A stretch of DNA of 64,000 nt from Microvirga terrae (GTDB taxonomy: Bacteria > Pseudomonadota > Alphaproteobacteria > Rhizobiales > Beijerinckiaceae), in NCBI RefSeq assembly GCF_013307435.2, contig NZ_CP102845.1, positions 3,284,001-3,348,000 on the forward strand. The letters are read 5' to 3'. The position numbers were made by a program, and so were the translations under genes. The notes under the pieces are model-generated. The model saw only the letters and a program-made list of their open reading frames with translations, did not search any database and had not been told where the DNA came from. Shown in pieces: positions 2,125 to 60,370 of this stretch. The stretch's first letter is position 1, and each line of letters starts with the position of its first letter.

Positions 2125-2217
2125 CGTCATGACCGGGCTTGTCCCGGCCATCCCGATCATGTGAGGCGCCGTGCCTTACGGATCGAGATCACCGGCCCAG
2201 GGCCCGTGATGACGTGG
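2125..2217. repeat. BIME-like pair of inverted REP palindromes
   Basis: A forward REP core starts at about 2125 (GTCATGACCGGGCTTGTCCC) and an inverted, more divergent partner lies at about 2187-2217 (read on the minus strand it begins GTCATCACGGGCC). The two starts are about 62 bases apart, nearly the same spacing as in the copies at 2617-2713 and 57455-57546, so this is a defined composite unit rather than chance palindromes. Confidence 0.6.
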
Positions 2218-2616: not shown

Positions 2617-2713
2617 CCGTCATGGCCGGCCTTGTGCCGGCCATCCCGATCCGGAAGAGCGCCGCACCTCAAACAAGCGGGATCATCGCCACGAGGCCGG
2701 CGATGACGTCGAG
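2617..2713. repeat. BIME-like pair of inverted REP palindromes
   Basis: Forward core at about 2617-2650 (CATGGCCGGCCTTGTGCCGG, then CCATCCCGAT) and inverted partner at about 2680-2713. The starts are 63 bases apart, matching the other two composite copies. It ends just 9 bases from the stop of the minus-strand hydrolase gene, so it may act as that gene's transcript 3' end. Confidence 0.65.
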
Positions 2714-56833: not shown

Positions 56834-59800
56834 ATGCACCTCCTCCCGGTCACGGCGATCTCCCTCGACGAAGGCCAGGAGGCCACCGACCTCCAGCAGC
56901 CGCCGGGGGATGTCGTGGTCCTGTCCTTCGCGGACAGCGACCTCGGCGCCCTGGCGGAAGCCCACCGCCTGACGGCGGGCACAGCCTCGCTCCGCCTCGC
57001 CTCACTGCGCCGCCTGCGCCATCCGCTCTCAGTCGACCTCTACGTCGAGAGAACCGCCGCGAAGGCGCGCTTCGTGCTCGTGCGCTGCCTCGGCGGCCTC
57101 GACTATTGGCGCTACGGCATCGAGCACCTCGCCCGGGCCTGCCGGTCCCACGGCGTGAAGCTCGCGGTGCTGCCGGGCGACGACCGGCCCGACCCGCGGC
57201 TTTCGGCCTACGCCACCGTTCCCGCGGCGCTCTGCGATGAGCTCGACGCCTATTTCCGGGCTGGCGGCATCGACAACATGCGACGGCTGCTGGCCCGCAT
57301 CGGGGCCGAGATCGGCCTGTCCGATACGGCGGAGCCGCCTCGCGCGGCGCCGCGTGCGTTCGCTTGGGTGCTTCCGAGACCGCCCGTCGAAGGAAGTTCC
57401 GCTTACGGACCTGATCGCGAGAGACTGGGTCCCCGAGGACCAACAGCCACCTCACGGCATGGCCGGGCTTGTCCCGATGATCCCGATCCTTCGAAGCCCG
57501 GCGTTCTTCCGATTGAGATGGCCGGGACGAGCCCGGCCAGGACGGAGGTGGGAGTCTATGATGCGGCGGTCACCGGGAATGAGGGTTGCGAGGTCGAAGC
57601 GCACAGCATCGCGGTCCCGGAATCCATCCTCGCCAGCCTCCCCGGGGATCGTCCTCTCGCCTATCTCGTGGTCTACCGCTCTTCCATTCTCTCCGGCGAC
57701 ACGCGGGCCGTCGAGGCCCTGTCGGACGCGCTCGCCCGGCGAGGCATCGGGCCGCTCGTCCTTGCCGTCTCCAGCCTGAAGGATCCGGAAGCCGTCGCGG
57801 TCGTCCGGCGCACGATCCGGGCACGCTGTCCCGACATCATCGTGACCACAACCGCCTTTTCGTCGCGCGACGGGCAGGATTTCGTGCTCGACGAGGCCGA
57901 TTGCCCGATCCTGCAGGCGCTCCCGGTCGGCAGCGCCAAGGACGCCTGGGAAGCGTCGCCGCGCGGCCTTTCCGCGGCCGATCTCGCCATGCAGATCGCC
58001 CTGCCCGAATTCGACGGGCGCATCGCGGCTGGACTGATCTCGTTCAAGACCGAGGAGCCCGCCGAGCCGGCGCTCGCCTTCTCGCGCCGCGCCCAAGCGC
58101 CCGATCCGGCCGGCATCGATGCCGTCGCCGACAGGGCGGCCGCCTGGGTGCGCCTCGCCCGCACGCCGCGCCACGAGCGGCGGCTCGCCCTGGTCCTGTC
58201 CGATTATCCCGCGCGCGGCGGACGCGCCGGCTTCGCAGTCGGGCTCGACACGCCGGCGAGCGCCTGCGCTATTCTCGATCTCCTCAAGGATTCCGGCTAC
58301 GGGGCCGAGCGGAACGTCACGGCCGCCGACCTGATGCCGCGTCTCACCGAAGGCGAGCCGTCATTTTCCGTTCCACTCGCCGCCTACCTGTCGTGGCTCG
58401 ACACGCTTGCGCCGGGCGAGCGCGCCGCCATCGACGGGCGCTGGGGTGTTCCCACGGACGACCCTGCCTTCGCGGACGGCGCCTTCCGCTTCCGCGCGAT
58501 CCGCGCCGGAAACGTGCTCGTGGCCCTGCAGCCTGACCGCGGCCATCGCCGCGACCGAAAGGGCGTCTACCACGACCCCGAATGCCCGCCGGGCCACGGC
58601 TATCTCGCCTTCTATTTCGGCCTGCGGACGCTCGAGCGCATCCACGCCCTCGTCCATCTCGGCACCCACGGCACCACCGAATGGCTGCCCGGCAAGGCGG
58701 TGGCGCTGTCCTGCGCCTGCTGGCCGGGTCTCGCCATCGGGGCCATGCCGGTGATCTATCCGTTCATCGTCGACGATCCGGGCGAAGCCGCACCGGCCAA
58801 GCGCCGCATCGCGGCCGTCACCGTGGGCCATCTCACGCCGCAGACCGCCGAGGCGGGACAGCACGGCGAGGCGGCGGCCCTGCGCGAGCTGGTCGAGGAG
58901 TTCTCCTCCGCCCAGGTGCTCCACCCGGGCCGGGCCGCGCTCGTGGCGGGCGAGATCCTGGAGCGCGCCAGGGCGAGCGGGCTTGCCGAAGCGTGCGGTG
59001 TCGCGGACGGCATGCCCATGGATGAGGCCCTGACGCGCCTCGACGCCCATCTCTGCGACCTGGGCGAGGTGACGATCCGCGACGGGCTGCACGTGTTCGG
59101 CCGCGCTCCCGCCGGGCTCGAGGCCTGCGCGACTGGCGAGCGCGAGGGCCTGCTGAAGGCTCTCGACGGCCGCTTCGTCGTGCCAGGCCCGTCGGGCTCG
59201 CCGTCGCGGGGGCAGACCAACGTACTGCCCACCGGGCGCAACCTCGCGACCCTCGACCCAAGGGCCATCCCGACCCGAGCCGCCACCGAACTCGGTCAGC
59301 GGGCCGCGGCGGAAGTGGTGCGCCGGCACCTGCAGGAGGAAGGCGACTGGCCGCGCCGGATCGTCATGGATCTGTGGGCGTCCCCCACCCTCCGCTCGGG
59401 CGGCGAGGACATCGCCCATGCGCTGGCGCTCATGGGCGTGCGGCCGACCTGGGACCATGCCTCGACGCGGGTGACGGGGTTCGAGATCGTCCCGCAGCCG
59501 CTCCTCGACCAGCCGCGCGCGGACGTGACCCTGCGGGTCTCCGGGGCCTTCCGCGACACCTTCCCGGACCAGATCGCGCTGCTCGACGGCGCCGCCCGCG
59601 CGGTCGCGGCCCTCGACGAGGACGACGAGTGGAATGCGCTCGCCGCCGCGCGCCGGCGCGGCGAGGCGGCGTCCCGCGTCTTCGGCTCCGCCCCCGGCAC
59701 CTACGGGGCCGGCGTGTCGGCACAGACGCTCGACGGCGAATGGGCCACGAGAGACGATCTCGGCCGCACCTATCTCGACGGCACCTCCCATGCGCTCACG

Positions 59801-60370
59801 GCGGACGGCGGGGTGCGGGAGGACCACAGCTTCCCCCGGCGGGTTGCGCAGGCCGAGGCCTTCATTCATGTGAGCGACGTGGCCGAGCGCGATCTTCTCG
59901 ATGGGGATTCCGCCGCCGATTCCGTCGGGGGCTTCGCGGCGGCCGCCCGGTCGCTCGGCGCCGCCCCGGCCGTCTACAGTCTCGACACGAGCCGGCCTCA
60001 GGAGCCCAAGGCCCGCACCCTGGCGGAGGACGTCGACCGCCTCGTCCGCGGACGCCTGACGAATCCCCGCTGGATCGCCGGCCAACTGCGGCACGGCTGG
60101 CGCGGCGCCGCCGAGATCGCCCAGGCGGTCGATGCGCTCTTCGCCTTCGCGGCGACCACGGATGCGGTCCCGCCGTCGTCCTTCGATCTCGTTTTCACGG
60201 CCCTGATCGCAGACCAGACCGTCTGGGAGCCGATCGAAACCTTCAACCCGGCGGCCGCGCAGGCCATCGAGGCGCGACTCGCCGACGCCCGTCGCCGCGG
60301 CCTGTGGCAGAGCCGCCTCAATTCGGTGGCAGCCTTCTTCGAGGATGAACGGAAGGAGGCGGCCGAATGA
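56834..60370 (+). CDS. cobN: Cobaltochelatase subunit CobN, with repeat insertion
   Basis: 1178 residues, the large subunit of the ATP-dependent aerobic cobaltochelatase that inserts Co2+ into hydrogenobyrinic a,c-diamide with CobS and CobT (not in window). Typical blocks: VLPGDDRPDPRL, YPARGGRAGFAVGLDTP, HLGTHGTTEWLPGKAV, GPSGSPSRGQTNVLPTGRN, and VSDVAERDLLDGDSAADSVG. It is somewhat shorter than the Sinorhizobium protein. At residues about 208-238 a BIME-like repeat pair interrupts the N-terminal domain in frame. It overlaps cobG by 4 bases. Confidence 0.92.
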   Translation: MHLLPVTAISLDEGQEATDLQQPPGDVVVLSFADSDLGALAEAHRLTAGTASLRLASLRRLRHPLSVDLYVERTAAKARFVLVRCLGGLDYWRYGIEHLARACRSHGVKLAVLPGDDRPDPRLSAYATVPAALCDELDAYFRAGGIDNMRRLLARIGAEIGLSDTAEPPRAAPRAFAWVLPRPPVEGSSAYGPDRERLGPRGPTATSRHGRACPDDPDPSKPGVLPIEMAGTSPARTEVGVYDAAVTGNEGCEVEAHSIAVPESILASLPGDRPLAYLVVYRSSILSGDTRAVEALSDALARRGIGPLVLAVSSLKDPEAVAVVRRTIRARCPDIIVTTTAFSSRDGQDFVLDEADCPILQALPVGSAKDAWEASPRGLSAADLAMQIALPEFDGRIAAGLISFKTEEPAEPALAFSRRAQAPDPAGIDAVADRAAAWVRLARTPRHERRLALVLSDYPARGGRAGFAVGLDTPASACAILDLLKDSGYGAERNVTAADLMPRLTEGEPSFSVPLAAYLSWLDTLAPGERAAIDGRWGVPTDDPAFADGAFRFRAIRAGNVLVALQPDRGHRRDRKGVYHDPECPPGHGYLAFYFGLRTLERIHALVHLGTHGTTEWLPGKAVALSCACWPGLAIGAMPVIYPFIVDDPGEAAPAKRRIAAVTVGHLTPQTAEAGQHGEAAALRELVEEFSSAQVLHPGRAALVAGEILERARASGLAEACGVADGMPMDEALTRLDAHLCDLGEVTIRDGLHVFGRAPAGLEACATGEREGLLKALDGRFVVPGPSGSPSRGQTNVLPTGRNLATLDPRAIPTRAATELGQRAAAEVVRRHLQEEGDWPRRIVMDLWASPTLRSGGEDIAHALALMGVRPTWDHASTRVTGFEIVPQPLLDQPRADVTLRVSGAFRDTFPDQIALLDGAARAVAALDEDDEWNALAAARRRGEAASRVFGSAPGTYGAGVSAQTLDGEWATRDDLGRTYLDGTSHALTADGGVREDHSFPRRVAQAEAFIHVSDVAERDLLDGDSAADSVGGFAAAARSLGAAPAVYSLDTSRPQEPKARTLAEDVDRLVRGRLTNPRWIAGQLRHGWRGAAEIAQAVDALFAFAATTDAVPPSSFDLVFTALIADQTVWEPIETFNPAAAQAIEARLADARRRGLWQSRLNSVAAFFEDERKEAAE
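57455..57546. repeat. BIME-like repeat inside cobN
   Basis: Forward core at about 57459 (ATGGCCGGGCTTGTCCCG, then ATCCCGATC) and an inverted partner at 57517-57545, with starts about 60 bases apart as in the intergenic BIMEs at 2125 and 2617. The reading frame of cobN remains open through it and encodes HGRACPDDPDPSKPG and further residues unlike the rest of CobN. The insert lies between conserved blocks, probably in a surface loop. Confidence 0.7.

Follow-up and report, generated by a model that had tools for sequence, protein, structure and literature searches.

Palindromic repeats of unrelated families in the linker of the cobaltochelatase subunit CobN in Microvirga and related bacteria

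Introduction

REPs are regarded as excluded from genes. Those of the enterobacterial type, BIMEs or GTAG-REPs, carry a GTAG tag and come with a RAYT transposase, and we know of no enzyme that mobilises the CGTC-type REPs. The CGTC superfamily is delimited, in the parts of PMC3733652 considered here, by an unpaired end tag (CGTC, or TGTC or CCTC), a stem of 8-9 bp beginning with AT and a loop of 4-5 bases; its families are mostly dimers, with a tail that fits CCA in most of them. According to the same paper (Di Nocera et al. 2013), a wide variety of genes contain REPs, and recB of two Xanthomonas species has unlike REPs at approximately one position; its main text mentions neither cobN nor cobaltochelatase. 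Rickettsia palindromic elements lie in frame in many unrelated protein genes, to which they add a few tens of residues (PMC10969869, in the sections drawn on here). Br-REP1 and Br-REP2 of Bradyrhizobium are intergenic palindromic repeats from related bacteria, and the sections of PMC5082802 used here do not discuss intragenic copies of them.

Here we analyse a REP dimer that lies within cobN of Microvirga terrae, in a 64-kb stretch of DNA that we refer to, at its full length, as the window. Its family, F1, resembles the CGTC-tagged REPs, as far as these are portrayed in those parts of PMC3733652, in its tag, 9-base stem, 5-base loop, dimeric arrangement, alpha-proteobacterial host and lack of a dedicated transposase, but differs from them in that one gene takes several families. 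F1 shares alternating inverted units and intergenic dispersal with the GTAG-REPs, but its tag is CGTC and its own genome contains no match to the PF01797 Y1 transposase. The consensus sequences of Br-REP1 and Br-REP2 printed in the sections of PMC5082802 used here are unlike F1 and also unlike F2, a second family described below. An earlier note on this DNA had compared the insert with the Rickettsia elements. The comparison holds in that the cobN insert is palindromic, in frame and tolerated in a protein, but it does not extend to a general habit, since the Rickettsia elements (in the sections of PMC10969869 drawn on here) enter many unrelated genes, whereas the intragenic copies in our genome samples are found in cobN only. 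In-frame palindromes (Rickettsia), intragenic REPs of many species and the recB case of a shared site are known; the case described here differs in that the linker of one gene takes many palindromic families. Among the titles and abstracts listed from the open-licence literature on cobN or Microvirga combined with "palindromic", none reports a palindrome insertion in cobN.

A REP dimer in the reading frame of cobN

The features concerned are, by position in the window:

56834..60370, plus strand: cobN, cobaltochelatase large subunit, 1178 aa; frame uninterrupted, PF02514 match with E 8.4e-269
57380..57601, plus strand: extended linker, residues 183-256, predicted disordered; missing in CobNs of the empty 1104-aa type
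57380..57454, plus strand: left flank of the dimer, homologous to the L111 and L112 linkers (z 5.2 and 7.1)
57455..57544, plus strand: REP dimer in the cobN frame, coding for residues 208-238
57455..57483, plus strand: left REP unit, composed of a tag-like CGGC and the core; the stem has partly degraded in its 3' half (3 mismatches)
57516..57544, minus strand: right REP unit, inverted, with outward CGTC tag and intact stem
2125..2213, no strand assigned: extragenic REP dimer with a degenerate second unit (from the sequence, first core matched)
2618..2708, no strand assigned: extragenic REP dimer, spacing 58 (from the sequence)

The cobN gene is preceded by a cobW-type gene. According to the earlier note, a BIME-like composite palindrome lies in the cobN frame, is the same repeat as those between genes near 2125 and 2617, and has core starts about 60 bases apart. 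We confirmed both extragenic copies and located the inverted cores in cobN at 57459-57483 and 57516-57540, with the frame open throughout and a start-to-start distance of 57 bases, the commonest spacing in the family. The window linker comprises 124 residues compared with about 50 between the same anchors in empty Microvirga CobNs, which defines an extension of 74 residues. About 31 of the 74 extra codons are REP; the some 30 added codons proposed in the note correspond to the repeat but not to the whole extension, which varies between species and exceeds the REP.

The PDB relatives of the window CobN are 9uk9 and 7c6o, the latter being the top Foldseek match (E 1.6e-74). An AlphaFold2 model (mean pLDDT 76.5, 40-sequence alignment) has pLDDT values below 50 across residues 183-256, the longest such run in the model, which is flanked by strands 175-179 and 258-260. 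The linker appears as a gap in HMMER alignments with 9uk9 (175 to 273) and 7c6o (183 to 274), and the alignments to the solved CobNs break and resume there (173 to 199 in 9uk9, 182 to 189 in 7c6o). The model thus predicts a disordered linker at residues 183-256, and homology to the solved structures suggests a solvent-exposed hinge at the junction of the N-terminal (head) domain with the rest of the chelatase. The repeats would then dock at the CobN hinge.

F1 is a dispersed CGTC-type REP family

A 24-base core of F1 matches 246 sites in the 6.13-Mb genome at up to 3 mismatches and none in the reversed control, so the repeat suspected in cobN is indeed genome-wide; a 25-mer version finds 243 sites. 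In the 64-kb window, a 17-base core yields 8 matches compared with 0.47 in shuffles, 3 of the 8 being 3-mismatch matches outside any dimer. Among 101 candidate pairs with outward tags in 1.664 Mb of the genome, the spacing is 57 in 42, 58 in 35 and 56 in 10. Hence 87 of the 101 pairs fall at 56-58, and the commonest spacing is the one seen in cobN; a few of the remaining 14 outward pairs are spurious and owed to the limit of 8 mismatches. Inward pairs number 11 in the same 1.664 Mb.

The dimer consensus of the genome ends outwardly in CGTC, with 93-98% agreement per position, and 87 of 106 positions of the cobN dimer are identical to the consensus derived from dimers with spacing 57 (the cobN copy is among the 42 aligned). 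Each unit consists of the CGTC tag, a 9-base stem and a 5-base loop, and exact copies have the stem ATGGCCGGG/CCCGGCCAT and the loop CTTGT. F1 thus shows the tag, stem and loop, dimeric arrangement and absence of a transposase (judged by PF01797 only) of the CGTC superfamily; the left unit in cobN has the tag CGGC and a damaged stem, and the F1 tail is CCC compared with CCA in most CGTC families. A RAYT-type Y1 transposase was sought with PF01797, with 0 matches in the own genome; the control was positive in 5 of 14 genomes. REP dimers occur between genes at a density of about 1 per 4.4 kb. Of the 88 F1 dimers located elsewhere in the genome, outside the window, 71 have no stop in the frame in which cobN reads its copy.

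Unrelated palindromic families occupy the same linker

Of 3736 matched CobN-like proteins we compared the best 120, or 119 when the window's own copy is left out. Relative to an empty reference, 31 of these 119 (best 120 of 3736) have at least 15 extra linker residues, 1779 residues in total, while all remaining CobN sites combined account for 12 insert incidences and 387 residues. This count, together with 13 empty linkers among 33 Microvirga, bears out the expectation that the segment is absent in many relatives. Three of the 12 off-linker incidences, in Amorphus-type proteins, are again repeat-like.

At the DNA level we examined linkers from 79 named and 30 unnamed loci and could parse 105 of the 109 (L090, L103, L105 and L125 are missing). 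The inserts are palindromic DNA of mutually unrelated families, in frame, in Microvirga, Bosea, Methylobacterium and Amorphus. The repeat described in the earlier note is therefore only one of several such families at this linker, and the note was incomplete in this respect. Five families are shown to be dispersed within host genomes; three further ones, F5, F8 and F9, were assigned by their sequence. F1 is also present in cobN of M. sesbaniae, L112 and M. lotononidis. Most occupied Microvirga linkers contain F2 (CCTCATCCTGAGGAGC ... and its inverse), which F3 (CTCCCCCTTGTGGGGAGGG) frequently adjoins, and both families share one linker in five Microvirga genomes. The L123 linker combines F1, an F2 remnant and a third palindrome. 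F6 is found in Bosea cobN and F7 in cobN of Methylobacterium sp. J-076, and short peptide matches point to putative eroded F3 copies in the L036/L122 and L127 linkers. Genera differ in the insertion point, which precedes the PLPSFF block in Bosea and follows PRAFAW in Microvirga. As to sites away from the linker, P0091 and P0100 (both Amorphus-type) carry an F9-like repeat also at a second internal site (reference residues 432-436), and P0053 has a 34-residue insertion at reference residue 498 that is not obviously palindromic at the protein level.

F2 is read in two different frames in cobN (13 vs 8 of 21 scorable proteins; the tree requires 4 or more changes), and the unit is thus the DNA and not the peptide. 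Full-length F2 copies in cobN share their architecture with intergenic copies, and L121 and L128 have both lost the right half of F2 by a similar arm-to-arm deletion that retained the frame. F2 may also underlie the REP of the window. The left flank in L112, which is homologous to that in the window, is similar to linkers with F2 in 5 of 7 comparisons (z 4.3-6.0; z 2.8 and -0.25 for the remaining two), and the similarity takes in the beginning of the F2 arm. This suggests a candidate older F2 insertion; the window linker itself contains no significant match to the F2 core (p 0.32).

Linkers longer than 62 residues are found in 15 of the 76 parsed named loci. Exact inverted arms of at least 12 bases are present in 11 of these 15, and none of the 61 short linkers has arms longer than 11. 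The long linkers L031 (9) and L034 (11) have arms no longer than those in short ones, and L036 and L092 are without arms of at least 8. The hairpin could be useful in itself, if mRNA structure at the domain boundary slowed translation, allowing the head domain to fold before synthesis of the body. The inserts are sequence-unrelated, were gained repeatedly and yet are always palindromic, they are positioned between separately folding parts of CobN, and their RNA folds are very stable: the strand with the cobN REP has a folding energy of -62.7 kcal/mol (z -6.2) and an F2 copy one of -77.1 (z -9.5). However, every family supplied to the site is palindromic to begin with, so palindromy is no proof of selection, 13 of 33 Microvirga manage without an insert, and some inserts have decayed or lost an arm in frame (L121 and L128; L036 and L092 are armless). 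We consider such a role unlikely.

Repeats outside cobN avoid genes

Gene positions were taken from a simple codon-usage caller rather than from a curated annotation, with about 77-86% of the sampled blocks marked as coding. By these calls, 139 of 140 F1 copies are intergenic in a 1.6-Mb sample of the own genome that excludes the window, in agreement with the earlier statement that the palindrome is normally kept from genes. The remaining copy lies 30 codons into a called gene, ahead of what resembles the signal peptide of a TPM-domain protein, so the called start is probably wrong. The window contains three intergenic F1 copies and the pair in cobN.

Two relatives, G019 and G020, were sampled with 400 kb each, in blocks chosen to include cobN. 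F1 is intergenic there in 23 of 25 cases, with one copy at a gene edge and one weak in-gene match, which has 5 mismatches and on inspection is not a REP. For F2, 15 of 18 copies are intergenic and 3 lie in cobN; for F3, the corresponding numbers are 15 and 1 of 16. Exact F2 11-mers and an F5 12-mer in three genes each turned out to be short word matches; the genes concerned are conserved and have no palindrome there. Two relatives rich in F2 have 59 intergenic sites of this family among 60, the last one being a single codon away from the end of a gene; the 60 include some pairs of arms that belong to one element. As a positive control we used 12 cobN loci: 10 contain exact F2 cores, 15 in total, and the caller placed all 15 within genes, whereas the remaining two have no exact core.

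The search for further intragenic copies that the note had proposed returned no F1, F2 or F3 element within a gene other than cobN in the sampled genome blocks. Ten loci with a translated REP in long open frames and one locus of the own genome were considered, and none is a demonstrated second case. In most of these eleven the REP is close to where the open frame begins and probably upstream of the true start codon. It lies deeper in the frame in L275 and in the own-genome locus; six frames (the own-genome locus excluded) gave no Pfam match.

Insert type and the repeat repertoire of the host

Our Microvirga set comprises 48 genomes, 35 with cobN and 33 with readable linkers, of which 20 are occupied and 13 empty. 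The other 13 of the 48 genomes have no CobN match, and the presence of cobN is patchy in the genus.

The family found in cobN goes with a higher genomic copy number of that family (p 0.0016 for F1, 0.001 for F2 and 0.037 for F3, where the association is weak; 33 genomes, kinship ignored). Total repeats are likewise higher in genomes with occupied linkers (p 0.0001; 33 Microvirga, kinship ignored), and 7 of the 13 empty-linker genomes still carry at least 80 copies of F1, F2 and F3 combined. The own genome, with F1 in cobN, has 243 F1 sites, 2 F2 sites and no F3. The Methylobacterium with F7 in cobN contains 361 copies of this family, compared with 0 in two relatives with empty cobN. The picture is less clear for F6: five Bosea genomes with the insert have 5, 11, 10, 44 and 33 F6 sites (0 to 2 in controls), F6 being scarce in the first of these (5 sites vs 2 in a control), and a Bosea genome with an eroded linker has 10.

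Repeats do break assemblies: cobN of the G005 assembly is split over contigs C198 and C189, both of which end in F2 cores. A repeat-driven misassembly that placed the REP into cobN, or an annotation error, is nevertheless highly improbable. A near-identical protein (P0001, 99%) is present in the protein database, independent assemblies of other species, among them the complete genome L032, have inserts in the same linker with open frames, and none of the 34 main CobN matches in the genus-wide search contains a stop.

Turnover of inserts and constraint on the linker

A tree of 176 CobN rows, calculated with the linker removed and including 57 of the 79 named loci (L039, L097 and L108 are absent), requires at least 13 presence changes and 24 type changes, and a 59-row tree, mostly Microvirga, at least 4 and at least 15, respectively (F1 4, F2 8 and F3 6 changes by family); these counts assume that cobN alleles do not recombine, which could inflate them. 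Occupied CobNs do not form a single clade (AU p 0.00015). P0008, P0019 and P0021 are empty within an occupied clade, with linkers of exactly the ancestral length; precise loss, separate gains and allele exchange all fit this observation. In Bosea and Methylobacterium, single families are seen in scattered lineages with empty sisters. L034, labelled Chelatococcus composti, contains a CobN of the Microvirga type, grouped as a pair with P0015 in the tree, pointing to a mislabelled genome or to transfer.

Relative to M. sesbaniae, cobN of the window has a pN/pS of 0.74 for the linker and 0.85 for the REP, compared with 0.24 for the remaining sequence; the values against L112 are 0.75, 0.76 and 0.21. 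The synonymous divergence of the REP is about that of the rest of the gene, so the REP did not arrive recently. Almost no constraint acts on the amino acid sequence of the insert, whereas its frame is preserved.

Tolerance of the linker and its high occupancy

The most probable reading of these data is that selfish palindromes are tolerated in the disordered cobN linker, which is repeatedly colonised by families of the host genome. A CGTC-type REP dimer, dispersed in the genome, would have entered the stretch of cobN that codes for the disordered linker. It would have been retained because its DNA is open in the cobN frame and of a net length that preserves this frame, in a linker where almost any sequence is tolerated. 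Other palindromic families would colonise the same linker repeatedly, with turnover, nesting and partial deletion, each of them being a family present in the genome of that host. Mobilisation would depend on a trans-acting or other enzyme, because the genome yielded no match to a RAYT-type Y1 transposase, and the cobN insert presumably has no function of its own.

Tolerance alone predicts inserts in many genes with disordered linkers, and there are none in our samples. From the intergenic density of the repeats, a 60-base target as accessible as the DNA between genes should be occupied in some 1 to 2% of genomes, compared with the 20 of 33 observed. Kinship accounts for part of this occupancy, but not for the change of families. 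Tolerance thus explains the survival of inserts, but not by itself the restriction to cobN or the high occupancy, and an insertion preference or a use of the hairpin is possible.

The CobN linker may in this case be a true insertion magnet, in which palindromes already present or a local replication structure attract further elements more than other tolerant sites do. Several observations are in line with this: occupancy is far above the intergenic expectation, families lie side by side (F2 with F3 in five Microvirga, the trio in L123, F1 beside an F2-like flank in L112), and changes are frequent (at least 15 of type on the 59-row tree, 13 of presence on the 176-row tree). In Bosea and Methylobacterium, however, lone families occur next to empty sisters with no earlier palindrome visible, and the exact insertion point is not the same across genera, as seen for Bosea and Microvirga. 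We therefore regard a magnet as rather doubtful, and continue to favour tolerance with repeated colonisation from the host genome.

Tentatively, and with limited confidence, the linker between head and body of CobN could be seen as a general landing site for palindromes in several Hyphomicrobiales lineages, hit or retained beyond neutrality, with the hairpin either attracting machinery or being useful, for example in paced folding. If this were true, a protein gene would act as a standing collector of the palindromic family active in its lineage, and past waves of repeats would be recorded in its linker. A single site with multiple families makes it testable what sequence or structure such elements enter and on what the tolerance of a coding site is based. 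For annotators and structure modellers, the extra 15-119 residues in many Methylobacteriaceae CobNs are a caution: they are translated repeat DNA and not a domain.
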